Source: an uncultured Lentisphaeria bacterium
GTDB taxonomy: Bacteria; Verrucomicrobiota; Lentisphaeria; Victivallales; Victivallaceae
Direction: 5' to 3'
NCBI GenBank assembly: GCA_949298075.1
Contig: CASFVA010000008.1
Span: 1 to 44,727, forward strand
DNA length: 44,727 nucleotides
Shown here: piece by piece, positions 9,786 to 29,444 of the stretch
Layout: each line of letters begins with the position of its first letter
How positions within the stretch are numbered: position 1 is the stretch's first letter
Notes under the pieces: model-generated
Databases searched by the model: none
Seen by the model: only the letters and a program-made list of their open reading frames with translations
Told to the model about the DNA's origin: nothing
Translations under genes and position numbers: made by a program

Positions 9786-10970
9786 TCACCACCGCAACCG
9801 TTCAACGATCCGGCCGACCGCCTCCCGGGTCCGCTCCCGGTCGCCGAACGCAGTTAGCCGGAAACAGCCCTCGCCGCAATGTCCGAATCCGATTCCGGGG
9901 GTTCCAACCACCTGACAGCACTCCAGCAGCCGGTCGAAAAACGGCATTGATTCAACCCCTTCGGGAAGTTTCCACCAGATATAGGGAGCGTGCACCCCGC
10001 CGTAAACCGTAAAACCGGCTTCGCTCAGGCCACGGCGGATGATTTCGGCGTTATCCATATAGTAGGAGACCTGAGCGGCAACCGCCCGCCGGCCGGCTTC
10101 CGAATACACCGCCCGGGCAGCCCGCTGCACCACATAGGACACACCGTTGAATTTGGTGGTCTGGCGCCGCTGCCACATCCGGTTCAATCCTCCGGGCAGC
10201 TCCCTGGGAACCACACACCAGGCGCAGCGCACTCCGGTAAAGCCGGCGGTCTTGGAAAAGGACCGGAATTCAATGGCCACTTCTTTTGCTTCCGGAATCT
10301 CGTAGATGCTGTGCGGCAGTTCCGGATCCCGGATGTACGCCTCGTAAGCGGCGTCAAACAAAATCACGCTGCCGTGTTCCCGGGCGTACTCAACCCAGCG
10401 CGTCAGCGCCGCCCGCGACAGCACGGTGCCGGTCGGATTGTTGGGCGAACACAGATAAATCAGGTCCGCCGGCTCCTCCGGAGGCTCGGGCGAAAAACCG
10501 TTGCCGGCGGTGAACGGCAGATAGCGCAGGAACGCTCCCCGGCCCGCCATGAGGTTGCTGTCCCGATAGACCGGATAAACCGGATCACCGATCAAAACGG
10601 TGGAATCAGCGGCAAAAAGTTCCTGAATATTGGCCACATCGCATTTGGAGCCGTCGCTGACAAAGACTTCATCGGGATCCAGCTCCACACCGCGCGCCCG
10701 GTAATCGTGTTCGATAATGGCGCTGATCAGAAAACCGTACCCCTGTTCCGGACCGTATCCGCGAAAGGTCTCCGGACGCCCCATTTCATCGGCGGCAGTC
10801 CGAAGCGCGGTCACCACCGGCTCCGCCAGCGGCAGCGTGACATCTCCGATTCCCAGCCGGATGAGATCACCGTCGGGATGGCCGGACTTCCAGACGGCCA
10901 CCCGGCGGGAGATTTCTGAAAAAAGATAACCGCCGCTCAACTCGGCATAATTCGCATTTACTCTGAACAT
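9786..10970 (-). CDS. dapL: LL-diaminopimelate aminotransferase
   Basis: PLP enzyme converting tetrahydrodipicolinate directly to LL-diaminopimelate with glutamate as amino donor, in lysine and peptidoglycan synthesis. It is 394 residues. The start at 10970 ([11 protein letters not shown]) is set by GAGGTG inside the end of dapF, 8 nt upstream; an earlier ATG at 10979 would overlap dapF further and lack a site. Fold-type I aminotransferase marks: [15 protein letters not shown] (about residues 175-182) and the Schiff-base lysine K240 in [13 protein letters not shown], which is the DapL form of this motif. It is last in gltB-gltD-dapF-dapL. Pairing with DapF and with glutamate synthase, which supplies its donor, supports DapL over other class I/II aminotransferases. 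DapL is typical of Chlamydiae, Verrucomicrobia, Lentisphaerae, plants and some anaerobes. Confidence 0.93.
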
Positions 10971-10972
10971 GA

Positions 10973-11758
10973 TCAACACACCTCATAATCACCGGTGAAC
11001 ACCTCGCGGGCATCACCTGACATGTACACGTGCCGGTCGGCCTGGCTCCATTCAATGAACAGCGTGCCGCCATCCAGCCTGACCGCGGCCTTCCGGTCAC
11101 TGCGGCCGGCCAATACGCCAGCCACCGCGGCAGCACAGCTGCCGGTACCACAGGCCAGCGTGACGCCGCAGCCGCGCTCCCACACCCGCATGCGCAGGGT
11201 GTCCCGGTTGAGAGTCTGCACAAACTCGACATTGGTCTTTTGGGGGAAAAACTCATGGACCTCGATTTGCGGCCCCCATTCGGACAGCGGCACCGCGGCC
11301 ATGTCCTCCACCGGAATGACAAAATGCGGATTGCCCATTGACACCCGGAGACCCTGAAACTTCCGTCCGCAGCACACCACGGTTTCCGGCACCGCCGACC
11401 AGACCGGCTCACCCATGTCAACCCGGACCTGGTCGCCGTAAAGTTCCGGACGAATCACACCGGCCCGGGTATCGAGCTCGAAGCGCGTTCCCGCCGCCAG
11501 CCCCCTGGAATAAATGTACCTGGCCATGCACCGGGTCGCGTTGCCGCACATCTCAGCCTCACTGCCGTCGCTGTTGATGATCCGCATCTCGAACCGGACG
11601 CCGCCGAGTCGGCGCAACGTCACCAAACCATCGGCTCCGATGCCGAAATGCCGGTCGCACACCCGTGAGGCAATGGCGTGAAAATCAATGCCGGTTTCCG
11701 CATCGGCATCGACAAAGACAAAATCATTGCCGAGTCCCTGCCACTTGGAAAACTTCAT
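10973..11758 (-). CDS. dapF: Diaminopimelate epimerase
   Basis: Cofactor-independent racemisation of LL- to meso-diaminopimelate, the precursor of lysine and peptidoglycan cross-links. It is 261 residues, slightly short but complete. The N-terminus [17 protein letters not shown] is typical. The two catalytic cysteines are C71 (EMCGNATRC) and C203 ([10 protein letters not shown]), related by the family's internal duplication. The start overlaps the gltD stop as ATGA (11755-11758), and its 3' end carries the ribosome site of dapL, so the three genes are probably translationally coupled. Confidence 0.97.
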
Positions 11759-13116
11759 CGTCCGGCCTCCAGCAGAACTTTTTCCACTTCTCCGGCCACC
11801 CGGCGCCCGTCGGCAACAGCCCGCACCACCAGCGAGGGTCCCCGGGCCGCATCTCCGGCGTGGAAAATCCGGCCGGACACCGGCTCCGGAACCGGTTCCG
11901 GTTTGAGGAATCCAAGTGCAAGAAACACCAGATCACAGGCGATAATCTCTTTTCCGCTTTCGTCCGGTACCGGAATCATCCGGCCGTCGGTACCGCGGCG
12001 CCACTCCACCGGGGCGACTTCCGCCCCGGAAAGCCGGCCGTTATCGCCAATGAAGCGCAACGTGGAAAGACTCCAGCGCCGTATGCATCCCTCCTCGTGG
12101 CTGGAGCTGGTGCGCATGATCCGGGGCCAGTCCGGCCACGGATTCGACGCCGGACGTGTTTCAGACGGCCGGGGCATGATCTCAATCTGCGTCACCGCCG
12201 CGGCCCCCTGCCGATTGCAGGTACCGACGCAATCGCTGCCGGTGTCGCCACCGCCGATCACCAGAACCCGGCGCCCTTTCGCCGAAACCGGCAGTTCGGA
12301 CAGCTCCCCGGAGTTGAACCGGTTCTGGCCGCTCAGCAACTCCAGAGCCAGATGCACTCCGGACAGCTCCCGCCCCGGCACCCGAAGCTCCCTGGCCGCC
12401 GGAGTACCTCCGCACATGATCACCGCATCGAAAGTCCGGGCCAGGTAATCGACGGCAATATCCTCGCCAACCACCGTGTTGCCGATGAAATTTATGCCGG
12501 CGCCTTCCATCAGCTCTATCCGGCGGTCGATCAGCGCCTTGGGCAGCTTGAAATCCGGAATACCGTAACGCAGCAATCCGCCCGGCGCCGCGTTCCGGTC
12601 ATAAACCGTCACCTGAAAGCCCCGCCGGTTCAACCGGGCGGCAGCCGCCAGACCGGCCGGACCGGCACCCACTATCGCGATGGTCCGGCCGTTGCGTGAG
12701 GCCGGCGGCGGCATCCGGACATAGCCCCGTTCAAACGCGGTGTCGACAATGGCTTTTTCAATCTGGCGCACCATGACTGCGCCGAAATTTATCGACGCGC
12801 TGCAGCTGCCTTCGCACAATGCCGGACAGATCCGACTGGTGAACTCCGGAAAACTGCTGGTGTGTTCCAGAATATCCCAGGCATTTTTCCAGTCTCCCCT
12901 GACCACCGCCGCGTTGAAATCCGGAATCGCGTTGCCCAGCGGGCAGCCGCAGCCCTGGCAGAAGGGAATTCCGCAATTCATGCAGCGTACGGCCTGTTCG
13001 TGCAGAGCTGCCTGATCCAGCGTCATCTCGACCGCGTTAAAATCACGGCGCCGTTCCTCAACCGGACGGTAGAGGTGGTCAATCCGTTGAATTTCCAGAA
13101 ACGCCCGATTGGCCAT
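11755..13116 (-). CDS. gltD: Glutamate synthase small (beta) subunit
   Basis: Takes electrons from NAD(P)H and passes them through FAD and Fe-S centres to GltB, allowing glutamine plus 2-oxoglutarate to give two glutamates. It is 453 residues, a little shorter than the usual ~470-490. An N-terminal cysteine cluster (RCMNCGIPFCQGCGCPLGN, about residues 44-62, and RICPALCEGSC) fits the 4Fe-4S sites. FAD motif GAGPAGLAAAARL, NAD(P) motif VIGGGDTGSDC and the C-terminal GDAARGPSLVV complete the family pattern. It starts 2 nt after the gltB stop, with GGAGGG just upstream, and overlaps dapF by 4 nt. Confidence 0.95.
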   Translation of the reverse strand: MANRAFLEIQRIDHLYRPVEERRRDFNAVEMTLDQAALHEQAVRCMNCGIPFCQGCGCPLGNAIPDFNAAVVRGDWKNAWDILEHTSSFPEFTSRICPALCEGSCSASINFGAVMVRQIEKAIVDTAFERGYVRMPPPASRNGRTIAIVGAGPAGLAAAARLNRRGFQVTVYDRNAAPGGLLRYGIPDFKLPKALIDRRIELMEGAGINFIGNTVVGEDIAVDYLARTFDAVIMCGGTPAARELRVPGRELSGVHLALELLSGQNRFNSGELSELPVSAKGRRVLVIGGGDTGSDCVGTCNRQGAAAVTQIEIMPRPSETRPASNPWPDWPRIMRTSSSHEEGCIRRWSLSTLRFIGDNGRLSGAEVAPVEWRRGTDGRMIPVPDESGKEIIACDLVFLALGFLKPEPVPEPVSGRIFHAGDAARGPSLVVRAVADGRRVAGEVEKVLLEAGR

Positions 13117-13118
13117 GA

Positions 13119-16100
13119 TTACCTGCCCTCCATGTTGGCGCTGCGCTGCAACGCGGCCTTGTATTCAAAGGGAATTACCTTGACGAAGCTGCTGCGGAAA
13201 TCTTCCCAGCGCTCCAGTATCTCACGACCGAACGCGCTGCCGGTGCCGGCAACATGTTCGCGGATCAGCTCCAGCAATTCGGCTTCGTCGGCGCTCCCCG
13301 GCTCAACGCTCTCCAGATCGACGGTACCGACGTTGCAGCGCAAATCAAAATCGTTGTACTCATCGTAAACGTAGGCGACACCGCCGGTCATGCCGGCAGC
13401 GAAATTGACTCCGGTGGAGCCGAGCACCACCACCCGGCCGCCGGTCATGTATTCGCAGCCGTGATCGCCAATACCCTCCACAACCGCGGAAAATCCGCTG
13501 TTGCGGATGGCGAAACGCTCGCCGGCCTGCCCGTTGAGGAAAATCTTTCCGGAAGTGCCGCCGTAACCGATGACGTTGCCGGCAATGCTGTTCCGCCGGG
13601 CTTCGCAGTTACTGGAAGCCGGCGGACGGATCACAATCCGGCCTCCGGAAATGCCCTTGCCCACGTAGTCATTGGCTTCGCCTTCAAGCACGAAAGTGAT
13701 CCCCGGCGCCAGAAATGCGCCGAAACTTTGGCCGGCCGTGCCGGAAAAATGCACCGTCACCGTATCTTCCGGCAGTCCGGTGACGCCAAAGCGCCGCACC
13801 ACCCGGTTGGAGAGCAACGCGCCGGCGGTCCGATCCGCGCTCCGGATCGCGCACCTGATTTCTGCGGCCCGTCCGGATTCAAGCGTCTCGGTCAATTGCG
13901 GCAGCAGTGCCTTTTCGTCAAAGGCCGCCAGCGGCTCCCGCTGACCGTTGTAACGCACTTCGCCGCCCTCAGCCCGCTGGAAAATCCGGCTGAAATCCAG
14001 GTTGCGAGTCTTGTAAAACTCAATGGCCCGGTTCATCTGCAGCAGATCGCTGCGGCCGACCGCCTCGTCAAGAGTACGGAAACCGAGCCGGGCCAGATAT
14101 TCCCGGACCTCGCCGGCCAGCATACGCAGAAAGTTTTCAATGTATTCCGGCCTGCCCCTGAAACACTTGCGCAATTCAGGATCCTGAGTCGCCACGCCGA
14201 CCGGACAGCAATCCTCATGGCACTTGCGCATCATGATGCAGCCCAGGCAGACCAGCAGCGTCGTGGCAAATCCGAACTCCTCGGCTCCCAGCAGCGCTCC
14301 GATAATCACATCGCGTCCGGTCTTGAGCTGGCCGTCAACCTGAAGGCGAACCCGGCCGCGCAGCCTGTTGAGCACCAGCGTCTGCTGGGTTTCAGCCAGA
14401 CCGAGTTCCCAAGGCAGTCCGGCATGCTTGATGCTCGTCAGCGGCGACGCTCCGGTACCGCCATCGTGACCGCTGATCAGGATTACGTCGCTGTGCGCTT
14501 TGGCCACGCCGGCGGCCACCGTGCCGACACCGACCTCGGAAACCAGCTTGACCGAAATCCGGGCTTCCGGATTCGAGCACCGCAGATCGTAAATCAGCTG
14601 AGCCAGATCCTCAATCGAATAGATGTCGTGGTGCGGCGGCGGCGAAATCAGCGTGACGTGCGGCATGGCGTGACGCACCCGGGCAATGTCGTCGTTTACC
14701 TTGTGACCGGGCAGCTGACCGCCCTCGCCTGGCTTTGCCCCCTGAGCCATTTTGATCTGCAGCTCCCGGGCATGAGCCAGGTAGTCGATGGTGACGCCGA
14801 AGCGTCCGCTGGCCACCTGTCGGATCGCGCTGGACCGCACTTCGCCGTTCGGTCCGGGAATTTCACGTTCCGGATCCTCTCCGCCCTCGCCGCAGTTGCT
14901 GAGCGCACCAAGCCGGTTCATCGCCACAGCAATGGCCTCGTGGGCTTCGGGACTGAGCGCACCCAGACTCATGGCGCCTGAGACAAAGCGGCGGATGATG
15001 CTGTCCACGCTTTCCACCTCGTCAAGCGGAACAGCCTTGGCCGGCACGAATTCGAACAATCCGCGCAGAGTACACAGATTACGTTCCTGCTCGTTGATCA
15101 GCCGGGCGTAGGCCCGGTATTTTTCCGGATCGTTGCCCTGCACCGCCTGCCGGAACAGACTCAGGCTTTCCGGAGTCCACAAATGGTGTTCCCCAAACTT
15201 GCGGTACCTGTACTGGCCTCCGGACAGCAGCAGCGACCGGTTTTCCACCATTTCCGCCGCCTGGTACCGCTCCCGGGCCTCGCGGGCGATTTCCGGCAGG
15301 CCGATGCCGCCGATCCGGGAGGCGACCCCGGTGAAATAGCGGTCCACCACGTCCTGATTGAGTCCGAGCGCCTCGAAAATCTGCGCCGAACGGTAGCTGC
15401 GCAGCGTCGAAATCCCCATCTTGGACATCACTTTAAGCAGTCCCTTGTCCACTGCGGTGATGTAGTTTTCAGTCGCCCGGGCCGCGGAAAATCCGATCCG
15501 TCCGGACTGCGCCAGCGCCGAAACCGTCTCCAGCGCCAGATAAGGGTGAATCGCCGTCGCACCGAACCCGAGCAGCAGCGCGTAGTGCATGATCTCCCGC
15601 ACCTCGCCGGACTGTACAATCAGGCCGACCGGCGGCCGCAGATTCGCCCGGATCAGCGCCCGGTTGACCGCGGCGGCGCCAAGCAGCGCCGGCATTGGAA
15701 TCATGCCTTCGGGCAGATCCCGGTCGCTCAGAATCAGAATATTGTGGCTGCGGCGCACTTCGCTCACCGCGGCGGCGCACAGATCATCCACCGCCTGCCG
15801 GAGATCGTCGCGCCAGCCCAGCGGCAGCGTCACCGCCGAGACCCGGGTCTCATGCACCGCGGCCAGCCGCCGGATATCTTCGTCGGTAAGTACCGGCCGC
15901 TCCAGCCTGATCAGCCGGGCATGCTCGGGAGTTTCCGCCAGAATGTTGCCCTGGTTGCCGATGTAAGTGGTTAGACTCATGACCAGTTCCTCCCGGATCG
16001 GATCGATCGGCGGATTGGTCACCTGCGCAAAAAGCTGCTTGAAATAATTATAGAGCAGCTGCGGTTTTTCTGAAAGCACCGCAAGCGCCGCGTCGTTGCC

Positions 16101-17588
16101 CATGGAGCCGACCGGTTCATGTCCGGTCTCGGCCATCGGCTGGACAATAAGATCGACATCCTCGCCGGTCCAGCCGAACCGCCGCTGCCGGCAGATCAAA
16201 TGTTCGTTGACCTCCGACGGATTCACGGAATCAAACAGACCGCTCACCGCGATGCGATTCTCCTCAACCCAGCGCCGGTAAGGCCGGCAGCGGGCAATCC
16301 GGTTCTTGATCTCGGCGTCGGTGACCAGGCGGTGGTGCTCAAGGTCACACCAGATGATTTCACCCGGACGCAGCCGGCCGCGCTTCACCACCGTTTCCGC
16401 CGGAATGTCCAGCACCCCGGTCTCAGAGGCCAGCACAAACAGGCCGTCGCGGGTCAGCGTATACCGGGCCGGACGCAATCCGTTGCGGTCCAGCATGGCG
16501 CCGAGATTGACGCCGTCGCTGAACGCCACCGCCGCCGGACCGTCCCACGGTTCCATCAGAGCCGAATGGTAATTGAAAAACCCCCGGACATCGCGGCCGA
16601 GGTGATAATTTTTACCCCAGGCCTGCGGCATCAGCATCAGCATGGCGTGCGGCAGACTGCGACCGGCGGCGACCAGCAGTTCCAGCATGTTGTCCAGCGA
16701 GGCGGAGTCGCTCTGCGCACCGTCGATCAGCGGCAGCAGTTTTTGAAGATCGTCGCCGAAGAGCGGCGACTCCAGAAACGCCTCCCGGGCCCGCAGCTGG
16801 TTGAGGTTGCCGCGCAACGTGTTGATCTCTCCGTTGTGAGCCAGATAACGGAACGGGTGCGCCAGCTTCCAGGTCGGAAAGGTGTTGGTGCTGTAACGCT
16901 GATGCACCAGCACCAGCGGACTGGTCAGGTCGCTTTCGCTCAGATCCGGATAGAACCGGTCGATCTGAGTGGCCAGTAGCAGTCCCTTGTAAACAATGCT
17001 GCGACTGGAACAGCTGGCAATGTAGCAGTCGGGACAGGACTTTTCAATCAGCCGCCGGATGACGAAAAGCTTGCGCTCAAGCTCGTCCCGGCCGGCATAG
17101 TTTTCGCCGCCGATGAACAACTGGGTGATCCGCGGCATGCTCTCCCTGGCGGTCCGCCCGATGGCTTCCGGACAGCAGGGAACCGCGCGGCAGCAGATCA
17201 CCCGAGCTCCTTCGGATTTGACAATGCCGGACACCACCGTCAAGTCCCAGTCTCCGAAAATCATCGCCACCGCATAGCGCCCCGCCTCCGGCAGCTCCGT
17301 CCCCGCCACCCGCCGGAAAAAAGCGTCCGGAAGCGCAAACAGCAGGCCGGCGCCGTCCCCGGTCTCCGGGTCACCGCCGGCCGCTCCGCGGTGCATGAGG
17401 CGCTTCAAAACCGTGATGCCCATCTCAATGATCCGGTGAGACGGACGGTTGTTGAGATCGGCCACCATGCCTACACCGCAGGCGTCATGCTCGTTGGCAA
17501 AACTGTACAGGCCGCTCTCCGGCGGCAGTTGGAGTCCGGCCGCGCCGCCGCGCTGTCGAACCGCATCTCCGGATTCACGATGTTCCAT
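13119..17588 (-). CDS. gltB: Glutamate synthase large (alpha) subunit
   Basis: Glutamine amidotransferase/FMN synthase: releases ammonia from glutamine and channels it to 2-iminoglutarate. It is 1489 residues from the ATG at 17588, chosen because AGGAGG (17597-17602) lies 8 nt upstream; the frame extends to 17651 without a site. Domains: class II amidotransferase with nucleophile Cys37 (HDACGVGMVADL) after a 36-residue propeptide, a central domain, the FMN synthase domain (GAMSLGALSPEAHEAIA; PGEGGQLPGHKV; ISGHDGGTGASPL), a 3Fe-4S cysteine region (CLGCIMMRKCHEDCCPVG) and the C-terminal GXGXG beta-helix. It heads the gltBD-dapFL operon and has a sigma-54 promoter at 17730-17746 giving a leader of about 130 nt. 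Confidence 0.97.
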   Translation of the reverse strand: MEHRESGDAVRQRGGAAGLQLPPESGLYSFANEHDACGVGMVADLNNRPSHRIIEMGITVLKRLMHRGAAGGDPETGDGAGLLFALPDAFFRRVAGTELPEAGRYAVAMIFGDWDLTVVSGIVKSEGARVICCRAVPCCPEAIGRTARESMPRITQLFIGGENYAGRDELERKLFVIRRLIEKSCPDCYIASCSSRSIVYKGLLLATQIDRFYPDLSESDLTSPLVLVHQRYSTNTFPTWKLAHPFRYLAHNGEINTLRGNLNQLRAREAFLESPLFGDDLQKLLPLIDGAQSDSASLDNMLELLVAAGRSLPHAMLMLMPQAWGKNYHLGRDVRGFFNYHSALMEPWDGPAAVAFSDGVNLGAMLDRNGLRPARYTLTRDGLFVLASETGVLDIPAETVVKRGRLRPGEIIWCDLEHHRLVTDAEIKNRIARCRPYRRWVEENRIAVSGLFDSVNPSEVNEHLICRQRRFGWTGEDVDLIVQPMAETGHEPVGSMGNDAALAVLSEKPQLLYNYFKQLFAQVTNPPIDPIREELVMSLTTYIGNQGNILAETPEHARLIRLERPVLTDEDIRRLAAVHETRVSAVTLPLGWRDDLRQAVDDLCAAAVSEVRRSHNILILSDRDLPEGMIPMPALLGAAAVNRALIRANLRPPVGLIVQSGEVREIMHYALLLGFGATAIHPYLALETVSALAQSGRIGFSAARATENYITAVDKGLLKVMSKMGISTLRSYRSAQIFEALGLNQDVVDRYFTGVASRIGGIGLPEIAREARERYQAAEMVENRSLLLSGGQYRYRKFGEHHLWTPESLSLFRQAVQGNDPEKYRAYARLINEQERNLCTLRGLFEFVPAKAVPLDEVESVDSIIRRFVSGAMSLGALSPEAHEAIAVAMNRLGALSNCGEGGEDPEREIPGPNGEVRSSAIRQVASGRFGVTIDYLAHARELQIKMAQGAKPGEGGQLPGHKVNDDIARVRHAMPHVTLISPPPHHDIYSIEDLAQLIYDLRCSNPEARISVKLVSEVGVGTVAAGVAKAHSDVILISGHDGGTGASPLTSIKHAGLPWELGLAETQQTLVLNRLRGRVRLQVDGQLKTGRDVIIGALLGAEEFGFATTLLVCLGCIMMRKCHEDCCPVGVATQDPELRKCFRGRPEYIENFLRMLAGEVREYLARLGFRTLDEAVGRSDLLQMNRAIEFYKTRNLDFSRIFQRAEGGEVRYNGQREPLAAFDEKALLPQLTETLESGRAAEIRCAIRSADRTAGALLSNRVVRRFGVTGLPEDTVTVHFSGTAGQSFGAFLAPGITFVLEGEANDYVGKGISGGRIVIRPPASSNCEARRNSIAGNVIGYGGTSGKIFLNGQAGERFAIRNSGFSAVVEGIGDHGCEYMTGGRVVVLGSTGVNFAAGMTGGVAYVYDEYNDFDLRCNVGTVDLESVEPGSADEAELLELIREHVAGTGSAFGREILERWEDFRSSFVKVIPFEYKAALQRSANMEGR

Positions 17589-17729
17589 TTCGGCATCCTC
17601 CTGTCTTATCTGTCCACCAATTCTGATCGATAATAATCTTAACCGGCTCAATTTTGCCGCCGGCGGAGCGTTCGGAACCGGTTTGAGATTCCCTCCCCGC
17701 CGGCGACGCCATCGCGTCCCCCCGCTGTA

Positions 17730-17746
17730 AGCAAAATGCGTGCCAA
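17730..17746 (-). promoter_or_regulatory. gltB sigma-54 promoter
   Basis: Reading the minus strand: TTGGCACG, four bases, TTGCT. This matches the YTGGCACG-N4-TTGCW sigma-54 consensus at every fixed position, with the canonical 10 nt between GG and GC. Predicted +1 is about 17719. No TATATT-type -10 is seen in this spacer. Confidence 0.88.
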
Positions 17747-17787
17747 ACCGCTTCCCGCCGGAACCGATGGCGGATTCGAATGAAAAG

Positions 17788-17805
17788 TTTTACAATTTTG
17801 TAAAA
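17788..17805. promoter_or_regulatory. Upstream activator site 1 (18-bp palindrome)
   Basis: TTTTACAA-TT-TTGTAAAA is a perfect 8-bp inverted repeat with a 2-nt centre. Its centre (17796.5) is about 77 bp upstream of the predicted gltB start and 108 bp upstream of the predicted glnN start, the range used by enhancer-binding proteins of sigma-54 promoters. The binding protein is unknown. Confidence 0.7.
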
Positions 17806-17819
17806 TTCATTGCCTCAAG

Positions 17820-17837
17820 TTTGACATTTTTGTAAAA
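17820..17837. promoter_or_regulatory. Upstream activator site 2
   Basis: TTTGACATTTTTGTAAAA matches site 1 at 16 of 18 positions in the same phase, 32 bp (three helical turns) away. Its centre is about 109 bp from the gltB start and 76 bp from the glnN start. It contains TTGACA (17821-17826), which with TTGTAT (17845-17850, spacer 18) could alternatively be a basal sigma-70-type promoter for glnN. Confidence 0.62.
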
Positions 17838-17852
17838 CTTTCACTTGTATTA

Positions 17853-17868
17853 ACGCCGTTTCAGGCGT
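17853..17868. promoter_or_regulatory. Small inverted repeat upstream of the glnN promoter
   Basis: ACGCC-gtttca-GGCGT lies about 52 to 37 bp before the predicted glnN start, between activator site 2 and the -24 element. It may be an operator or chance; no counterpart is visible on the gltB side. Confidence 0.3.
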
Positions 17869-17877
17869 AATTTAAAG

Positions 17878-17894
17878 TTGGCACAACTTTTGCT
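17878..17894 (+). promoter_or_regulatory. glnN sigma-54 promoter
   Basis: TTGGCAC, five bases, TTGCT: -24 GG at 17880-17881 and -12 GC at 17892-17893, with the canonical 10-nt separation. It departs from the extended consensus only at the base after TGGCAC (A for G). Predicted +1 is about 17905, leaving a leader of about 54 nt before the glnN ATG. Confidence 0.85.
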
Positions 17895-17958
17895 AAAACC
17901 AAATCGGAGTTCCCCGAACAGCCATCCCGGGGGCAAATATTTGAAAGGAGCAGTAAAG

Positions 17959-20094
17959 ATGAGCAACCTGAACCGGATTCACGCCGTCAATTCTGTGGCG
18001 GAACGTACCGTCGCCCCGCCCATGGCGGCGAAGGAGTTCTCCATCGGCTTCTATGGAGAGGACGTATTCAACGCCGAGGTCATCCGCCGTTATCTCCCCA
18101 AAAGCGTCGCGGAAAAGCTGCTTTCCACCATTAATGAGGGAGCACCGCTCGATCCGGCCATCGCCGGCGACGTGGCTCATGCCATGAAGGAGTGGGCCCT
18201 CTCCCGCGGTGCTTCACATTTCACCCACTGGTTTCAGCCTCTGACCGGCGGTACCGCCGAAAAGCACGACGCCTTTCTGGAATCCACCGGCCAGGCCCAG
18301 GCCATCATGTCCTTTTCGGGCAAAAACCTCATCGTCGGCGAACCGGATGCCTCCAGCTTTCCCTCCGGAGGGCTGCGCTGCACGTTTGAAGCCCGCGGTT
18401 ACACCGCCTGGGATCCAACCAGTCCGGCTTTCATCAAGCGCCATGCCAACGGCGCCACGCTGTGCATTCCCACCGCGTTCTGCTCCTACACCGGCGAAGC
18501 GCTCGACAAGAAAACTCCCCTGCTGCGCTCCATCCAGGCGCTGGGCAAGGCGGTCAACCGTTTCATGAAGGCTTTCGGACAGGCGGAAGCCCGTCCGGTG
18601 GTGACCCTGGGCGCCGAACAGGAGTACTTTCTGATCGACAAAAACTTCTATCTGCAGCGCCCGGATCTCGTCCAGACCGGACGCACCCTCTTCGGCGCCC
18701 CGCCGCCGAAGCATCAGCAGCTGGAAGACCACTACTTCGGCTCGATCAAACCCCGGATTCTCAATTTCATGAACGAGGTTGAAACCGAACTCTGGAAACT
18801 CGGCATCCCCGCCAAGACCCGGCACAATGAAGTCGCGCCGGCCCAGTTCGAGCTGGCTCCGATGTTTGAGGAGCTCAACCTCGCAGTCGATCACAACATG
18901 CTGATCATGGAAGTGCTCCGGCAGGTCGCCGAGCGCAACGGACTGGTCTGTCTGCTTCATGAAAAACCCTTCGCCGGCGTCAACGGTTCCGGCAAACACA
19001 ACAACTGGGCGGTGGCCTACGGGACGCACAACCTGCTCGACCCGGGTCATGATCCGCGCCAGAACGCGATCTTTCTGACCATGCTCTGCGCCATCATCCG
19101 GGCAATCGATCTGCACAGCGACGTGCTGCGCTCCGCCACCGCCAGCGCCGGCAACGACCACCGGCTCGGCGCCAACGAAGCGCCGCCGGCCATCATTTCG
19201 ATCTTCCTGGGCGAGCAGCTCGCCGACGTCATCGAACAGATCGAAATCGGCGCGGTCAAGGGCAGCCGGACGCCCGGGAAAATGCAAATCGGCGTCGACA
19301 CCCTGCCGCCGCTGCCCCGCGACGCAACCGACCGCAACCGGACCAGTCCGTTCGCGTTCACCGGCAACAAGTTTGAATTCAGGGCGCCCGGCTCCAGCCA
19401 GTCCTGCGCCGGCGTCAACGTGATTCTCAACACCATCGTCGCCGAATCGCTGGATTACATTTCCTCCAAAATTGAGAAGTTCAAGAAGTCCGATTTCAAC
19501 TTCGAACTCCAGAACCTGCTCAAATCGGTCATCAACACCCACAAGCGGGTGATCTTCAACGGCGACAATTATTCCGCCGCCTGGGCCGAGGAAGCCAAAC
19601 GCCGCGGACTGCCCAATCTGCGGACCACCATGGAGGCGCTGCAGCCGCTGCGTACCGCTGAAACCAAGGCGCTGTTTGAGAAGTACGGCGTATTTTCCGG
19701 AGCCGAACTGGAGTCGCGCTATGAGGTGTCGCTGGAGGAATACCACCGCAAAATCAAAATTGAGGGCGAGATTTCGCTCGAAATCGCCCGCAGCATGATC
19801 ATGCCGGTGGTCGCCGACGAATACAGCAAATTCGCTTCGGCCCTCCACACCGCCACGGCCGACCAGCTGAACACCGGAGTCAAAGGACTGCGGGCCGCAG
19901 CCGAGAAGCTCGGCGCCGGCCTCGACGAACTGGCCAACCGCTGCGAAATCCTGGAAGCCGCCCTCAAAGGTCAGCACGAGGATATCATCAGCGCGATGAC
20001 CGAGGTCCGCAAAATCGTCGACTTCCTCGAATATGTCGTGGACGACTCCCGCTGGCCGCTGCCCAAATACCGGGAAATGCTCTTCATTTACTGA
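17959..20094 (+). CDS. glnN: Glutamine synthetase type III
   Basis: ATP-dependent condensation of glutamate and ammonia to glutamine. It is 711 residues, the size of GSIII (~700-730) rather than GSI (~450). Family blocks: MSFSGKNLIVGEPDASSFPSGG in the N-terminal half, TLGAEQEYFLID carrying metal-binding glutamates, the ATP/substrate region KTRHNEVAPAQFELAP, and GSGKHNNW followed by SAGNDHRLGANEAPP. The start at 17959 is chosen over 17878 because AAGGAG at 17945-17950 is 8 nt upstream and the earlier frame would overlap the sigma-54 promoter. It is divergent from gltB, first of the glnN-purF-carA-pyrG-carB run, and ends 25 nt before the next gene. The GS/GOGAT pair thus shares one control region. 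Confidence 0.97.
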   Translation: MSNLNRIHAVNSVAERTVAPPMAAKEFSIGFYGEDVFNAEVIRRYLPKSVAEKLLSTINEGAPLDPAIAGDVAHAMKEWALSRGASHFTHWFQPLTGGTAEKHDAFLESTGQAQAIMSFSGKNLIVGEPDASSFPSGGLRCTFEARGYTAWDPTSPAFIKRHANGATLCIPTAFCSYTGEALDKKTPLLRSIQALGKAVNRFMKAFGQAEARPVVTLGAEQEYFLIDKNFYLQRPDLVQTGRTLFGAPPPKHQQLEDHYFGSIKPRILNFMNEVETELWKLGIPAKTRHNEVAPAQFELAPMFEELNLAVDHNMLIMEVLRQVAERNGLVCLLHEKPFAGVNGSGKHNNWAVAYGTHNLLDPGHDPRQNAIFLTMLCAIIRAIDLHSDVLRSATASAGNDHRLGANEAPPAIISIFLGEQLADVIEQIEIGAVKGSRTPGKMQIGVDTLPPLPRDATDRNRTSPFAFTGNKFEFRAPGSSQSCAGVNVILNTIVAESLDYISSKIEKFKKSDFNFELQNLLKSVINTHKRVIFNGDNYSAAWAEEAKRRGLPNLRTTMEALQPLRTAETKALFEKYGVFSGAELESRYEVSLEEYHRKIKIEGEISLEIARSMIMPVVADEYSKFASALHTATADQLNTGVKGLRAAAEKLGAGLDELANRCEILEAALKGQHEDIISAMTEVRKIVDFLEYVVDDSRWPLPKYREMLFIY

Positions 20095-20119: not shown

Positions 20120-21907
20120 ATGTCGGATGCGCTTCAACATGAATGCGGCGTTTCTCTCCTGCGGCTGCGCCGGAACCTGCGGTATTACGAACGCAAGTAC
20201 GGCACCGTATACTACGGATACCACAAGCTGGCGCTGCTGCTGGAGAAACAGCACAACCGCGGTCAGGACGGCGCCGGAATCGCCGCCGTCGGACTTGAGG
20301 CCCGCCCGGGGCGCCCGTTCTATCAGTTGGAGAAGTCCTGCAGTGAACTCTCGCTGGCCGATCTGCTCGAACGGATCGGTCGGCGGATTCAGGAAACCCA
20401 GTCCGGCCGGCAGTCGAATTTTTCCGATTCAGATGTGCTGGCCGAGGCTTATCCGTTCTGCGCCGAAGTCTATCTCGGACACCTGCGCTACGGCACGTTC
20501 GGCAACCGGACCCTGGCAGCCTGCCACCCTCTGGTGCGGGACAACTCCTGGCGCAATCACACCCTGCTGCTGGCTGGCAACTTCAACCTCACCAACACCG
20601 GTGTGCTCTTCGAACGCCTGGTGAACTCCGGGCACCATCCCCGCAGCCGTCAGGACAGCGAAATCCTGCTGGCCCAATTGACGCATTTCCTGGAAAAAAC
20701 GCCGTCAAACCAGTCTTTCGGCATGGCCTCCGCCGACATTCTCGGCATCCTGGAGCGGGCGGCCCGGGAATGGGACGGCGGCTTCAACATCTGCGGCATT
20801 TTCGGCAATGGCGATGCATTTGCACTGCGCGACGCCGCCGGAATCCGTCCGGCCTACTATTATTTTGACGACGAAATCGCCGTGGTCGCCTCGGAACGCC
20901 CGGCCATCCAGACCGCGTTCGACCTCTCCAGCGCCGAAGTGAGCGAACTGCCTCCGGGCCACGCCCTGACTGTCATGCGCAACGGCGATGTCAGTCTCAA
21001 ACGCTGTCTCGAACCGGCTCCGGTGCGACGGTGCGTTTTTGAGCGCATCTATTTCTCCCGCGGCAACGACGCCGATATCCACCGGGAACGACGGGCGCTC
21101 GGACGGGCACTGGCGCCCCGCGTACTCGACGCGGTCGGCCACGATTTCGAAAACACGGTGTTTTCCTACATCCCCAACACCGCCCAGATCGCTTTTCACG
21201 GTCTGCTCGATGAACTGTACAATACCGGGCACGGTCAACGGGTCCGCTTCGCCCAGATCGCGGTAAAGGACGCCAAATTCCGGACATTCATCACCGACGT
21301 CTCCCAGCGCCGGGAACTGTTTCCCCACGTCTACGACGTCACCTACGGCGTCGTGCGTCCCGGCTCCGACCAGTTGGTGGTGCTTGACGACTCCATTGTC
21401 CGCGGCAACACGCTGCGCAATGCCATTCTGCCGATGCTCGATCGCCTCGGCCCCCGGAAAATCGTGGTGGTCTCCAGCGCACCGCCGGTAAAATATCCGG
21501 ATTGCTACGGCATCGACATGGCCAGCTTCGGCGAACTGGTCGCCTTTGAAGCGGTCATGGCCATTTTGCGGCGCCGGGGTCGGGACGACCTGATCGCTGA
21601 ATGCGCCCGCAACGCAGAAACCGATCTCGCCGGAACCGATCGGGAGTGTCAGAATCGCGCCCGGCCTCTCTACGATGCCGTCACCGGGGAGGAACTCGCC
21701 AGGGAAATCGCCGACCGGCTCAAACCCGCGCAGCTGAGAGCGGACTTTGAAGTGGTGTTTCAAAGCTGCCGGGAACTGCGCTGCTGCTGCCCCAACCACA
21801 CCGGCGACTGGTATTTCACCGGAAACTATCCGACTCCGGGCGGCAACCGGGTCGTCAACCGGGCTTTGTTGAATTATCTGAATATGATCAATCAGAGGGC
21901 TTATTGA
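20120..21907 (+). CDS. purF: Amidophosphoribosyltransferase, long PurF-type
   Basis: Predicted first step of purine synthesis: PRPP plus glutamine to phosphoribosylamine. It is 595 residues, longer than classical PurF (~450-510) and like the long form seen in Bacteroidetes. The start at 20120 (MSDALQHECGV) has GGAAAG 9 nt upstream. Cys9 would become the N-terminal nucleophile after removal of an eight-residue propeptide. Class II amidotransferase marks: QHNRGQDGAGIA and YLGHLRYGTFG. The phosphoribosyltransferase PRPP loop is VVLDDSIVRGNTLRNAI, then SSAPPVKYPDCYGIDM. The C-terminus holds a cysteine-rich patch (CRELRCCCPNHTGDWYFTG) of unknown role. It lies between glnN and carA (4-nt gap). A related amidotransferase role is possible but less likely. 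Confidence 0.82.
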   Translation: MSDALQHECGVSLLRLRRNLRYYERKYGTVYYGYHKLALLLEKQHNRGQDGAGIAAVGLEARPGRPFYQLEKSCSELSLADLLERIGRRIQETQSGRQSNFSDSDVLAEAYPFCAEVYLGHLRYGTFGNRTLAACHPLVRDNSWRNHTLLLAGNFNLTNTGVLFERLVNSGHHPRSRQDSEILLAQLTHFLEKTPSNQSFGMASADILGILERAAREWDGGFNICGIFGNGDAFALRDAAGIRPAYYYFDDEIAVVASERPAIQTAFDLSSAEVSELPPGHALTVMRNGDVSLKRCLEPAPVRRCVFERIYFSRGNDADIHRERRALGRALAPRVLDAVGHDFENTVFSYIPNTAQIAFHGLLDELYNTGHGQRVRFAQIAVKDAKFRTFITDVSQRRELFPHVYDVTYGVVRPGSDQLVVLDDSIVRGNTLRNAILPMLDRLGPRKIVVVSSAPPVKYPDCYGIDMASFGELVAFEAVMAILRRRGRDDLIAECARNAETDLAGTDRECQNRARPLYDAVTGEELAREIADRLKPAQLRADFEVVFQSCRELRCCCPNHTGDWYFTGNYPTPGGNRVVNRALLNYLNMINQRAY

Positions 21908-21911
21908 AATC

Positions 21912-22991
21912 ATGCAACGCAAACACTTTCTGGCGCTGGCCGATGGAACCGTATTTTACGGCGGTTCCTGCGGCGCCCCCGTCGACGCCGTGGGCGAGGC
22001 GGTTTTCAACACCGGAATGACCGGCTATCAGGAGATCGTCAGCGATCCCTCCTACGCCGGGCAGTTCGTCACCCTGAGCGCTCCCGAAATCGGCAACTAC
22101 GGCTGCAACCGCGAGGATATGGAATCCCGCGGCCTTTTTTTGAATGGACTGATTGTACAGGAAATGAATCCGCCCTCCAATTACCGGTCGGAAGAGCCGC
22201 TGACCGACCTTCTCGGGAGGTTCAAGGTTCCGGCTCTGTGCGGAGTGGACACCCGGCGCCTGGTGCTTCATCTGCGTGACCACGGCACCCAGAAAGCCTT
22301 CCTGCACGCTTCCGACCGGCCGCTGGACCCTGCCGAAGCCGTGGCCCGCGCCCGCGCCTGGGAGGGGCTGGACAATCAGGATTACGCCGCCCGGGTCAGT
22401 GTTTCCGAACCGTTTTTCTGGAGCCGTTCCGGCAAATACCGCGTGGTCGCCTACGATTTCGGCGTCAAATACAACATCCTGCGCAGCCTCGCCGCCGCCG
22501 GATGCGCGGTCGAAGTGGTGCCGGCGTGGACAACGGCTGCGGAAGTGCTGTCCCGCCGGCCCGACGGAGTCTTTCTCTCCAACGGTCCCGCTGACCCCGG
22601 AGCTGTCAGGGGAGCCATCGAGGCCGCCCGCGAATTGATCGGCAAAGTGCCGCTCATGGGAATCTGCCTCGGACATCAAATCCTCGGGATCGCCTCCGGC
22701 GCCGTCTGCGGACGGCTCAAATTCGGACACCACGGCTGCAACCATCCCGTCAAAAACCTGCTGCTCAACACCATCGAAATCACCAGCCAGAACCACAATT
22801 TCGCCCTTGACGCCGGGAAACTGCCATCCACGCTGGAGCTGACCCACGTCAACCTCAACGATCACACCGTGGAGGGCGTCCGCCATGTCCGCGAACCCAT
22901 GTTCAGTGTGCAATACCACCCTGAAGCCGCGCCGGGACCGCACGATGCGGACTATCTGTTCTCTCAGTTCACCCGGCTTATGGAAAGGTAA
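21912..22991 (+). CDS. carA: Carbamoyl-phosphate synthase small subunit
   Basis: Glutaminase subunit delivering ammonia to CarB for carbamoyl phosphate (pyrimidines and arginine). It is 359 residues, normal length. The N-terminal domain has the typical GEAVFNTGMTGYQEI(V)SDPSYAGQ and GVDTRRL blocks. The class I amidotransferase domain holds Cys252 in MGICLGHQILG and the His-Glu pair in VQYHPEAAPGP. It starts 4 nt after the purF stop and is followed by pyrG after 6 nt; the natural partner carB comes after pyrG, an interrupted carAB order. Confidence 0.96.
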   Translation: MQRKHFLALADGTVFYGGSCGAPVDAVGEAVFNTGMTGYQEIVSDPSYAGQFVTLSAPEIGNYGCNREDMESRGLFLNGLIVQEMNPPSNYRSEEPLTDLLGRFKVPALCGVDTRRLVLHLRDHGTQKAFLHASDRPLDPAEAVARARAWEGLDNQDYAARVSVSEPFFWSRSGKYRVVAYDFGVKYNILRSLAAAGCAVEVVPAWTTAAEVLSRRPDGVFLSNGPADPGAVRGAIEAARELIGKVPLMGICLGHQILGIASGAVCGRLKFGHHGCNHPVKNLLLNTIEITSQNHNFALDAGKLPSTLELTHVNLNDHTVEGVRHVREPMFSVQYHPEAAPGPHDADYLFSQFTRLMER

Positions 22992-22997
22992 TCCATC

Positions 22998-24602
22998 ATG
23001 GCCAAGCACATCTTCATCACCGGCGGCGTCGTTTCCAGTCTCGGCAAAGGCATCACCGCCGCCAGCCTGGCGTTGCTGCTCAAGAGCCGCGGTTACCGGG
23101 TCGCCATGCAGAAGCTCGACCCCTATCTCAACGTCGATCCCGGCACCATGTCGCCCTATCAGCACGGAGAGGTTTTCGTCACCGACGACGGCGCGGAAAC
23201 CGACCTTGACCTCGGACACTATGAACGGTTCGCCGGAGTGACCTGCAGCAAGGCAAGCAACTACACTTCCGGCAAAATCTACAGCAATGTCATCGCCCGC
23301 GAACGCGCCGGCGAATACCTCGGCGGCACCGTACAGGTGATTCCGCACATCACGGACGAAATCAAACGCGCCATTCAGTCGGCGGCCGCGCCGGACATTG
23401 ACATTGTCATGACCGAGATCGGCGGTACCGCCGGCGATATCGAATCCCTGCCGTTTCTGGAGGCCGCCCGCCAGTTCAAACTGGAGTCCGGCGCCGGCAA
23501 TGCGATATTCATTCACCTCACGCTGCTGCCCTACATCCGGGCGGCAGGCGAACTCAAAACCAAGCCCAGCCAGCAGTCGGTGGCGGTGCTGAGAAACATC
23601 GGGATTTTTCCTGACATCCTCGTCTGCCGCACCGAGGTTCCCATGGCCGAAGAACACCGCCGCAAACTGGCGCTCTTCTGCAATGTGCCCCGCGACCTGG
23701 TCATTGAGGAGCAGGATGTCAAGCATTCGATTTATGAAGTTCCGGCGGAACTGGCCGCCCAGCAGCTCGACGCCAAGACGCTGGAAAGTCTGAGGCTTCC
23801 GGTTCCGCCCCTCCGCCATACCGACTGGGACAAGCTGGTTCCGACCGTGCTCCATCCCGAACGGCGCTGCCGGATCGCGCTGGTCGGCAAGTACGTGAGC
23901 TGCCGCGATGCCTACAAGAGCGTTTACGAGGCCCTGGACCACGCCGGACTGGCCGCCTCCGCCAAGGTTGACATCGACATGATCGAGGCCGAGGAACTTG
24001 AATCCGGCACCGCCCGGCTGAATTCCGCCGACGGCATTCTGATTCCGGGCGGATTCGGCAACCGCGGGGTGCCCGGCAAACTGGCGGCCATCCGTTACGC
24101 CCGGGAGCATGATGTGCCGCTGCTGGGAATCTGTCTGGGCATGCAGTGCATTGTCATTGAATTCGCCCGCGATGTTCTGAACTGGTCCGACGCCGACAGC
24201 ACCGAGTTCAACTCCGCCACTGCGCATCCGGTGATCGATCTCATGGACGACCAGCGCGGCGTCACCGCCAAGGGCGGCACCATGCGGCTCGGAGCCTATC
24301 CGTGCCTGCTGCGGCCGGGCAGTCTGAGCCTGAAACTTTACGGTGGTCCGGAAATCTCAGAACGCCATCGGCACCGTTACGAATTCAACAACCTGTTCCG
24401 GGAACAGCTGGAACGGGCCGGACTCCGGGTTGCCGGAACCAGTCCGAACGACAAGCTGGTTGAAATGGTTGAACTGCCCGGACTCCGCTTTTTTGTCGGA
24501 TGTCAGTTTCACCCCGAATTTAAATCGCGTCCCACCGCCGCTCACCCGTTGTTTTCCGGATTGATCCACGCCGCGCTGGAACGTCAGAACGAGAGAGGAT
24601 AA
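22998..24602 (+). CDS. pyrG: CTP synthase
   Basis: Converts UTP to CTP with ATP and glutamine. It is 534 residues, normal length. The synthetase domain opens with [20 protein letters not shown] (P-loop) and has [20 protein letters not shown] and the [14 protein letters not shown] block. The glutaminase domain carries Cys379 in [15 protein letters not shown] and FHPEFKSRP near the C-terminus. GGAAAGG precedes the ATG. It is inserted between carA and carB with 6-nt gaps on each side, so the three are surely co-transcribed. Confidence 0.97.
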
Positions 24603-27600: not shown

Positions 27601-27842
27601 TGCTCGACCTCCTGCAGGAGGGCAAAATCCAGTGGATCGTCAACACTCCGGAACAGGGTGCGGCGTCAATGGTCGATGAAATCCGCATGCGTTCCGGAGC
27701 CGTGGCGGCCGGCTGTCCGATCACCACCACGTTGTCGGCGTTCGCAGCGGCCATGGAGGGCCTGGAAACCACCATTGACTCCGGACGCATGACGGTCTGC
27801 AGTCTGCAGGAATATCACCGTCATCTGCGGTTCAAGGGTTGA
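24609..27842 (+). CDS. carB: Carbamoyl-phosphate synthase large subunit
   Basis: Synthetase subunit with two ATP-grasp halves: the first phosphorylates bicarbonate and forms carbamate, the second phosphorylates carbamate. It is 1077 residues, normal length. Duplicated marks: [18 protein letters not shown] near residue 12 and [19 protein letters not shown] in the middle; [14 protein letters not shown] versus [33 protein letters not shown] versus [18 protein letters not shown]. The C-terminal MGS-like regulatory domain begins near [18 protein letters not shown]. The stop TGA (27840-27842) lies inside the -35 of the guaA promoter. Confidence 0.97.
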
Positions 27843-27902: not shown

Positions 27903-29444
27903 ATGTCTCAGGAAACCATAGTCGTTTTCGATTTCGGGTCGCAGTACAGCCAGCTTATCGCCCGGCGCATCCGTGAATGCCGGGTGTACAGCAAGGTGGT
28001 CCCGTACACCACCACGGCGGAACAGCTGCGGGCCGAGCGCCCCATGGGGATCATTCTTTCCGGCGGCCCGGCCAGTGTCTATGCCGACGGCGCACCCAAT
28101 GTTGATCCCGAAGTATTCCGGCTCGGCATTCCGGTGCTGGGCATCTGTTACGGCATGCAGCTGATGATGCACACCCTGGGCGGCCGGGTAACCCCGGGCC
28201 GGAGCCGGGAATACGGCCGGGCCGAATTGAACGTCTCCGCCCCTGATCCGCTCTTCACCGACCTTCCCGGTCGACTGACTGTCTGGATGAGTCACGGTGA
28301 CAAAGTGGCGGATCTTCCGGAAGGTTTTGCCTGCACCGCCGCCACGGCCGATACGGAGAATGCAGCAGTGAGCAACACCGCCGGCCGGCTTTACGGCATT
28401 CAGTTTCATCCGGAAGTGGTGCACACGGAACACGGTGCTGAAATCATCCGCAACTTCTGTCTGAACATCTGCGGCTGCGCCGGCAACTGGAACATGGCCG
28501 ACTTCATTGAGGAATCGATCCGGGACATCCGGCGCCGGGTGGGAACGTCCAAAGTCATCCTCGGTCTTTCCGGCGGAGTGGATTCCTCGGTTGCCGCGGC
28601 GCTGATCCACAAGGCGATCGGACGGCAGCTCACCTGCATTTTCGTCGACAACGGATTGCTGCGCAAAGACGATGCCGCCAAAGTCAAAAAACTGTTCGGC
28701 GACAATTTTCAGATGAAACTCTGCTTTGTCGACGCCTCCAACCGGTTTCTGGACCGGCTCTCCGGAGTGGAAGAGCCGGAACACAAACGCAAAATCATCG
28801 GTCGCGAATTTGTGGAGGTATTTTCCGACGCCGCACGGTCCATTGAGGGAGCGGAATTTCTGGCGCAGGGGACGACCTATCCCGATGTGATCGAGAGCAT
28901 TTCCATCAACGGCAATCCGTCGGCGGTAATCAAGAGCCATCACAACGTGGGCGGCCTGCCCAAGGATCTCAGGTTCAAGCTGCTTGAACCGCTGGCCTGC
29001 CTCTTCAAGGACGAAGTTCGCGAGGTCGGCCGGCGGCTGGGACTGCCGGAGTCGGTGGTCATGCGCCAGCCTTTCCCCGGTCCCGGGCTCGGCGTGCGGC
29101 ATCTCGGCCCCATCAACGCGGTGACGCTCAACATTCTGCGCGAGGCCGACGCCATTATGGTCGATGAAATTAAAAAAGCCGGATTGTACTACAAGATGTG
29201 GCAGGCGTTCGCCATTTTCATTCCGCTGCGCACCGTGGGCGTCATGGGAGATTTCCGCACCTACGACTACATCATCGCGCTGCGGGCGGTCGAGAGCATG
29301 GACGGCATGACCGCCGACTGGGTAAATCTGCCTCACGATCTGCTGCAGCGGATCTCCAGCCGGATCATCAACGAGGTCCGGGGCGTCAACCGGGTGGTCT
29401 ACGACGTAACCAGCAAACCCCCGGGCACCATCGAGTGGGAATGA
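27903..29444 (+). CDS. guaA: GMP synthase (glutamine-hydrolysing)
   Basis: Converts XMP to GMP with ATP and glutamine ammonia. It is 513 residues, normal length. The class I amidotransferase domain begins [19 protein letters not shown], with nucleophile Cys82 in [11 protein letters not shown] and [14 protein letters not shown]. The ATP-pyrophosphatase domain has the PP-loop [15 protein letters not shown], and the dimerisation domain ends [14 protein letters not shown] lies 6 nt before the ATG. It may be read both from carB upstream and from its own promoter. A strong bidirectional terminator follows directly. Confidence 0.98.

Follow-up and report, generated by a model that had tools for sequence, protein, structure and literature searches.

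A putative two-way sigma-54 control region with tandem dyads between the glutamate synthase and type III glutamine synthetase genes of a Lentisphaeria bacterium

The spacer separating gltB from glnN in an uncultured Lentisphaeria bacterium is very probably a two-way sigma-54 control region, at which a NifA-like GAF activator would bind shared dyads and switch on the genes on both sides, together with the gene for PII. The first-pass annotation had placed the GS/GOGAT cycle under one sigma-54 switch, a reading that our analysis supports and that the dyads, the activator and PII would extend. Support at the sequence level comes from the promoters and dyads and their geometry, from rpoN and the gene for the activator, from the dyads at PII, and from linkage and covariation in relatives. 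The window, by which we mean the whole stretch of 44,727 nucleotides analysed, contains the following genes on the two sides of the spacer:

9786..10979, minus strand: dapL, LL-diaminopimelate aminotransferase, final gene of the gltB side (TIGR03542, over cut-off)
10973..11758, minus strand: dapF, diaminopimelate epimerase (TIGR00652, over cut-off)
11755..13116, minus strand: gltD, glutamate synthase small subunit (TIGR01317, 496 bits, cut-off 447.7)
13119..17588, minus strand: gltB, glutamate synthase large subunit, 1489 aa (NF008730, 1689.7 bits, cut-off 1047; PF00310, PF04898, PF01645, PF01493)
17959..20094, plus strand: glnN, type III glutamine synthetase, 711 aa (PF12437 GSIII_N, 250 bits; PF18318)
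20120..21907, plus strand: PurF-like class-II glutamine amidotransferase/phosphoribosyltransferase (PDB PurF chains, E 1e-24; PF13522)
21912..22991, plus strand: carA, carbamoyl-phosphate synthase small chain (PF00988, PF00117)
22998..24602, plus strand: pyrG, CTP synthase (PF06418, PF00117)
24609..27842, plus strand: carB, carbamoyl-phosphate synthase large chain (PF02786, PF25596, PF02787, PF02142)
27903..29444, plus strand: guaA, GMP synthase (PF00958, PF00117)

GltB, GltD, DapF and DapL were called by scores exceeding curated NCBIfam cut-offs, and GlnN carries both the GSIII_N and Gln-synt_C-ter domains (PF12437, PF18318) by which type III glutamine synthetases are recognised. The glutamine synthetase catalytic family (PF00120) was found at a single place in the assembly (87% complete), corresponding to glnN. 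The PurF-like protein scored 135.7 bits for TIGR01134, under the cut-off of 350. CarA, PyrG, GuaA and the PurF-like protein have one glutamine amidotransferase domain each, and the gene content previously proposed, gltB-gltD-dapF-dapL on one side and glnN, the PurF-like gene, carA, pyrG, carB and guaA on the other, was confirmed. Short gaps suggest that the genes are co-transcribed on each side; from glnN through the PurF-like gene, carA, pyrG, carB and guaA, these gaps are 25, 4, 6, 6 and 60 bp long, the 60-bp gap making the membership of guaA in the operon less sure.

The spacer is 370 bp long (17589-17958), with start codons (gltB ATG 17588, glnN ATG 17959) that we chose from the ribosome-binding sites. 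Two outward-facing sigma-54 promoters are predicted within it:

17731..17745, minus strand: sigma-54 -24/-12 core of gltB, exact match TGGCACGCATTTTGC, predicted start near 17719-17720
17879..17893, plus strand: sigma-54 -24/-12 core of glnN, exact match TGGCACAACTTTTGC, predicted start near 17904-17905

The core expected of a sigma-54 promoter, near TGGCAC-N5-TTGC, is thus matched exactly at both sites. The motifs lie where they had first been reported, on the minus strand at 17746-17730 (TTGGCACG-CATT-TTGC-T) and on the plus strand at 17878-17894 (TTGGCAC-AACTT-TTGC-T), and each displays the GG-N10-GC geometry. A scan of positions 17560-17980 detected no sigma-70-like promoter (shuffle mean 0.2). 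No other exact TGGCACN5TTGC match occurs on either strand of the window, in which matches with two mismatches were fewer (32) than the shuffle mean (51), indicating that the motif is not generally common there.

The sites might be chance matches in an AT-richer spacer, an explanation to which we attach a minute probability. The genome as a whole contains seven exact matches, and sites with at most one mismatch were not in excess (133, versus 145 in the reversed control), such that the motif alone constitutes weak evidence genome-wide. Dinucleotide shuffling of the spacer, by contrast, yielded one exact site or more in 15 of 20,000 sequences and both sites in none; nor were both sites obtained in any of the 20,000 with the looser pattern TGGCAYN6TGC. 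Furthermore, the back-to-back pattern (131-161 bp gap) recurs in relatives, at 18 places in 16 of the 137 genomes of the order, against 0 of 137 for the reversed-pattern control. The case for the promoters rests on position, pairing and conservation, rather than on the motif alone. A genome-wide motif search was dropped as a means of finding the regulon, as it gave no excess over the reversed control, and we disregarded one exact match, located before an acetyl-xylan-esterase-like gene (L010), because a TTGCAA-TATAAT-like pair, identified by eye, overlaps it.

Between the two promoters lie two tandem dyads that are absent from the first-pass annotation:

17788..17805, no strand assigned: dyad 1, TTTTACAATTTTGTAAAA, perfect ACA-N4-TGT palindrome, candidate enhancer site, centre 17796.5
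17820..17837, no strand assigned: dyad 2, TTTGACATTTTTGTAAAA, same ACA-N4-TGT core, candidate enhancer site, centre 17828.5

Their centres are 32 bp apart, and the midpoint of the pair (17812.5) coincides with that of the two -24 elements (17812); the dyads are consequently centred ~51 and ~83 bp upstream of the -24 T of each promoter, at roughly -77 and -109 relative to each predicted start. No such pair arose in 3,000 shuffled spacers. The pattern TTACAN4TGTAA-N18-TTACAN4TGTAA (up to two mismatches) was found twice in this genome (none for the reversed control): the gltB-glnN spacer and C63:5693-5738, upstream of the sole PII gene. Across genomes, it was matched in 10 of 140, and the control pattern was matched once each in four, suggesting that a few single matches, such as that in G090, may be due to chance. 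No NifA-type TGT-N10-ACA was seen by eye in the spacer.

The distance between the promoters also appears to be constrained. In 34 deduplicated spacers, the -24 elements are separated by gaps that group at 109-112, 120-122, 131-134, 142-146, 154 and 166-168 bp, with one of 137 bp, and therefore recur in steps of ~11 bp. When the period was scanned from 9.5 to 12 against a uniform null, this periodicity gave p values of 0.0002 for gaps of up to 150 bp (n=19) and 0.0016 for gaps of up to 230 bp (n=26), and was equalled in 0 of 5,000 null sets for gaps of up to 175 bp (n=22). These steps fit an enhancer and promoters kept on one face of the helix, as support only, weakened by the kinship among the genomes. 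The spacer could, instead, contain two independent back-to-back sigma-54 promoters, each with its own enhancer and with no shared control. This is unlikely, even though the dyads of two genomes (G039, G056) lie at the usual distance from glnN only and spacers with gaps of 196-353 bp occur: in this genome and four of the Victivallis genus code (G040, G070, G065 and G057, the last being Victivallis vadensis DSM 14823), only one dyad pair was detected and its midpoint lies ~0.5 bp or less from that of the promoters. A further back-to-back sigma-54 pair, away from glnN, was seen at G040:C62:685-859 and G136:C42:491-665, both genomes being of the Victivallis genus code.

The sigma factor on which the original reading depends is encoded by one rpoN gene in the genome, with activator-interacting, core-binding and DNA-binding domains (AID, CBD, DBD). 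There are two full sigma-54 activators, one with GAF, AAA+ and HTH domains (P0003) and one of the response-regulator type (L003), the remaining four PF00158 matches being weak (34.6 bits or less). The enhancer-binding protein gene and upstream site that a sigma-54 promoter needs would be provided by the GAF activator and the tandem dyads, a pairing to which covariation also points. The activator gene is located as follows:

G000:C25:23388-24911: GAF activator gene (P0003), GAF-AAA+-Fis-type HTH (PF01590/PF13185, PF00158, PF02954)

P0003 has the GAF, sigma-54 AAA+ and Fis-type HTH domains of NifA, contains a GAFTGA motif and aligns over residues 9-500 with the solved NifA 9qq6; its score for the NifA equivalog TIGR01817 (467.2 bits) is under the cut-off of 528.85. 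An NtrC circuit has an activator with a receiver domain at the glutamine synthetase enhancer; here, the activator that linkage and covariation associate with the dyads has a GAF domain and no receiver domain, and either activator might bind them. Among 71 activator sequences, GAFTGA was found in 52 and GSFTGA in 18, with neither in G076. The P0003 gene is flanked by a DeoR gene and a TauE-like gene (the latter by eye), on a contig separate from that of gltB-glnN. The 488 bp upstream of it contain no gene-facing sigma-54 site (up to two mismatches) and no exact ACA-N4-TGT, and the autoregulation implied in relatives is, therefore, not seen in this genome.

The named relatives are mostly Lentisphaeria and Victivallales, Oligosphaera ethanolica and V. 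vadensis being cultured. Sixteen of the 18 back-to-back places were taken as loci (L157-L172), and 12 of these, the window included, lie between gltB and glnN; one (L159, see below) lies between gltB and a PurF-like gene, and three (L157, L158, L162) are at genes other than gltB, glnN or the PurF-like gene. We surveyed 131 GlnN copies from 110 genomes, retained from 141 matches after the removal of nine without an N-terminus and one with 75 bp upstream, scoring a site as at most one mismatch within 400 bp. A glnN-facing site was present in all 27 copies with a divergent gltB, this one included, in six of seven with a divergent activator gene, and in 28 of 97 others. A gltB-facing site was found in 21 of the 27 divergent spacers, again including this one (24 of 27 within 600 bp), versus 11 of 97 others. 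The N4 dyad, present in 19 of 27 copies with a divergent gltB and 32 of 97 others, is by itself less sharp than the promoter.

The expectation that close relatives would retain the motif held in part. The back-to-back arrangement recurs, but the site is absent from 25 of the 31 genomes of the same genus code with a surveyed glnN. The GAF activator is missing from 23 of these 25, indicating that the module is missing, and not the motif alone. Overall, six of the 31 have the site and eight the GAF activator, which is kept in G011 and G030 with no site detected. With rpoN present in 116 of 120 relatives, this patchiness cannot be explained by the sigma factor. The GAF activator (scored as present if the best E was under 1e-120, a threshold of our choosing) was found in 54 of 61 site-bearing genomes versus 10 of 49 without a site; of the seven with a site and no detected activator, one (G034) has a divergent gltB.

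The activator gene is also linked to the genes that it is predicted to control. Among the 30 activator loci listed, it lies directly after dapL, on the same strand, in 16 (L174-L176, L181-L188, L190, L198, L199, L201, L202), after gltD in three (L189, L197, L200) and beside glnN in one (L196); the other 10, including that of this genome, had no recognised query-gene ortholog adjacent to them (flanks of up to 1.5 kb). In several of the 16 dapL-linked loci, the contig also carries a glnN match at 8-10 kb, the distance expected from the order glnN/gltB-gltD-dapF-dapL-activator. Two of the 46 activator genes used for covariation (see below) have an in-frame stop as assembled (G043, G119).

These data bear on a second alternative, according to which the sigma-54 promoters are genuine and respond to the AtoC/NtrC-like L003, in classical NtrBC style, the dyads belonging to L003 or another protein. 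L003 has receiver, AAA+ and HTH domains, scores 382 bits for TIGR01818 (ntrC) and is, apart from P0003, the only full sigma-54 activator that the genome was found to contain. However, its best score is to AtoC and it falls under the ntrC cut-off of 558.6; it is the presence of the GAF activator that predicts the sites, and the GAF gene that is linked to gltBD/glnN in relatives; and operator spacing, PII included, follows the recognition helix of the GAF activator (see below). Moreover, genomes of the same genus without sites keep weaker activator matches (best E ~1e-67 to 1e-77), presumably of the response-regulator type and possibly orthologous to L003, in which case such proteins alone do not predict sites. 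Control by L003 in place of the GAF activator is decidedly unlikely; L003 might, nevertheless, contribute beside it.

Several other arrangements were observed in relatives. In G096 (L159, G096:C17), gltB is back to back with a PurF-like gene, and the region separating them contains tandem dyads and two sigma-54 sites, indicating a rearrangement of the arms of the module; further tandem dyads not at glnN are present in G088:C15, G093:C10 and G117:C141, of the same genus code as G096. L091 and the GlnN loci of genus code g41 have glnN-facing and opposed sigma-54 sites ~250 bp apart and N5 dyads, with no gltB alongside; the next recognised gene at L091 encodes a glycosyl hydrolase of family 31. 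A possible CTC[AG]-type element precedes the -24 element at 15 of 34 glnN-side and 11 of 34 gltB-side promoters of relatives (for example, L053, L056, L225 and L233), a count made without a control; it was not seen at the two promoters of the window. Six GlnN loci (L077, L096, L098, L100, L104 and L105) 66-72% identical to the query come from MAGs named as Planctomycetia, Fibrobacter or Akkermansia, names that may be wrong.

The search for the motif at other nitrogen genes, suggested as a check in the first-pass annotation, led to one further gene:

G000:C63:5231-5740: sole PII gene of the genome, with the same tandem dyads (L042)

Its upstream region combines the dyads with a weaker GG-N10-GC site, CGGCACGCAATATGC, which has two mismatches and starts 56 bp before the ATG. 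A sigma-54 site (at most one mismatch) was present in 34 of 39 PII upstream regions of relatives and in none of the other five. The 40 PII regions considered came from 30 genomes (seven typed PII-bearing genomes, G034, G083, G086, G091, G092, G095 and G101, were left out) and 35 had a usable site, this genome's being counted at two mismatches; one of the 35, from G046, was untyped. PII was found in 53 of 120 relatives (E of 1e-15 or less), and no match was obtained in module-bearing genomes such as G010, G032 and G048, which are 94-97% complete, so PII is not an obligatory partner in all carriers, making a directly sensed ligand likely. Within its genus code, this genome was the only one of those searched to give a PII match at the cut-off used.

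We related the spacing of the dyads to the recognition helix of the activator. A dyad model restricted to ACA-N4-TGT seemed to fail in several spacers of the same genus, and was abandoned when inspection revealed N5 dyads in them. Operators were then typed blind to the activator sequences, by scoring spacings of 1-9; of the 61 copies with a site, 51 were kept (one per genome, score of at least 28, margin of at least 3), 46 of them from genomes with an activator sequence. ACA-N4-TGT was assigned in 32 genomes, all with R[VI] in the recognition helix (32/32), and ACA-N5-TGT in 14, all with RM[MI][NSH]YR (14/14); spacing class and helix class thus match in 46 of 46, a set that includes the five N5 spacers from which the idea arose (G005, G010, G032, G098, G113). 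On a tree of 67 activators, built with the HTH excluded and without the long-branch rows G030, G058, G069b and G073, the N5 group represents one change (SH-aLRT 80), so that the 46 matches amount to one event rather than 46 independent ones. Where the two are linked, an activator might simply be inherited together with its operator; in this genome they are unlinked, and separate contigs carry them in G007, G024 and, G098 excepted, the typed genomes of g41. The PII promoters provided new data for the spacing relationship, with 31 agreements among 34, three ties and no contradictions: the best dyad was N4 over N5 in 15 of 17 N4 genomes (two ties) and N5 over N4 in 16 of 17 N5 genomes (one tie). 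Many of these PII dyads are weak, and a single genus code, g41, in which one PII copy may be close to the activator gene, accounts for 14 of the 17 N5 cases.

The dyads could, alternatively, bind a different protein, such as a repressor or global nitrogen regulator, the link to the HTH being a by-product of common ancestry. As the N4/N5 switch is one event on the tree, another lineage-specific factor could have changed along with it. However, operator type cuts across taxonomy: it is N4 in this genome and N5 in five others of its genus code (G005, G007, G010, G024, G032), and family code f4 includes both types, each matching its activator. In addition, an enhancer-binding protein requires just such tandem sites, spaced ~30 bp apart and lying upstream of a sigma-54 promoter. 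We therefore consider a different protein highly improbable. This genome has an N4 operator and an R[VI] activator, as opposed to N5 and RM in the five other typed members of the genus; its N4 module and PII may be either a retained old copy or the result of transfer.

From these features, we infer binding, activation, looping, the serving of both promoters by one bound activator, and the sensed signal, as follows. Sigma-54 RNA polymerase would sit closed at both -24/-12 sites, and the NifA-like GAF-AAA+-HTH activator would bind, as dimers, the two ACA-N4-TGT dyads midway between them. The GAF domain would report nitrogen shortage, leading the activator to assemble into an ATPase ring that could open either promoter through a short DNA loop. 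Transcription would proceed one way into glnN and the glutamine-using nucleotide genes and the other way into gltB-gltD-dapF-dapL, with the PII gene under the same activator. The signal would be a ligand sensed directly, for instance 2-oxoglutarate, PII being optional, given that several module-bearing genomes have no PII match.

The proposed region defines a testable nitrogen-control circuit around a type III glutamine synthetase in a little-studied lineage of the gut and rumen, and the existence of a cultured carrier, V. vadensis DSM 14823, in which the module has exact sites in both directions, renders the claim directly testable. Because glnN is the sole glutamine synthetase gene found (in an assembly that is 87% complete) and no sigma-70-like promoter was detected before it, glutamine supply may depend wholly on sigma-54. 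The change from N4 to N5, matched by the recognition helix, constitutes a natural experiment in the joint change of a regulator and its site. We give even chances to a broader proposal: that ammonium assimilation in Lentisphaeria is governed by a one-component NifA-like activator replacing NtrBC, that one enhancer-bound activator serves two opposed promoters in helical register, that nitrogen is sensed directly, and that the operator changed once from N4 to N5 with the recognition helix, across the regulon and including PII.

In enteric bacteria, glnA is controlled by NtrC, acting from tandem enhancer sites ~100 bp upstream of a sigma-54 promoter; NifA controls nif genes through the operator TGT-N10-ACA; and NtcA is a CRP-family sigma-70 activator, with no involvement of sigma-54. 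The COG3968 group is presumably that of the type III glutamine synthetases. The circuit proposed here resembles enteric NtrC-glnA in its tandem candidate enhancer sites, sigma-54 promoter and glutamine synthetase target, but its activator is NifA-like and lacks a receiver, the dyad sequence and enzyme type are different, and gltB is directly included. It differs from cyanobacterial NtcA-glnN, a sigma-70 system, in its predicted sigma-54 promoter. As far as the sources used describe these proteins, P0003 shares the GAF-AAA+-HTH architecture of NifA, VnfA and AnfA, with near end-to-end similarity to NifA (9qq6), but differs from NifA in its score under the equivalog cut-off, in its presumed target, ammonium assimilation, and in its probable operator, ACA-N4-TGT. 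The VnfA1 motif in the part of PMC9542535 used here, GT(T/A)C-N6-GTAC, is also unlike ACA-N4-TGT. NtrC-sigma-54 control of glnA in enteric bacteria is named in the portion of PMC3162934 covered, in which Lentisphaer-, Victivallis, Verrucomicrob-, gltB and glnN do not occur. For cyanobacterial glnN and NtcA (PMC6316151, PMC4923085), the likeness to our case is a type III glutamine synthetase under nitrogen control.

Among the open-access papers listed, judged by title and abstract opening, we recognised none that deals with type III glutamine synthetase under sigma-54 control, whether in Lentisphaeria or elsewhere in the PVC group. The excerpts of PMC12316311 used here present glutamine synthetase COG0174 as a mainly Pseudomonadota sigma-54 target and mention glutamine-synthetase-like proteins as sigma-54 candidates of Planctomycetes, with no occurrence of COG3968, Lentisphaer- or Kiritimatiell-. 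The nearest precedent is the RpoN regulon of Geobacter sulfurreducens: according to the part of PMC2725144 considered, RpoN controls both routes of glutamate and glutamine synthesis, with glnB-glnA (glutamine synthetase with PII) under sigma-54 and the glutamate synthase operon so controlled by prediction. As far as that text goes, the two systems are alike in the actual or predicted placing of glutamine synthetase, PII and glutamate synthase under sigma-54, but in G. sulfurreducens glnA is with glnB and the gltB operon is separate, whereas here glnN is back to back with gltB, shares one candidate enhancer pair with it, and is accompanied by dap and nucleotide genes. Control of GS/GOGAT by sigma-54 is known elsewhere, and what is new here is the type III glnN/gltB variant.
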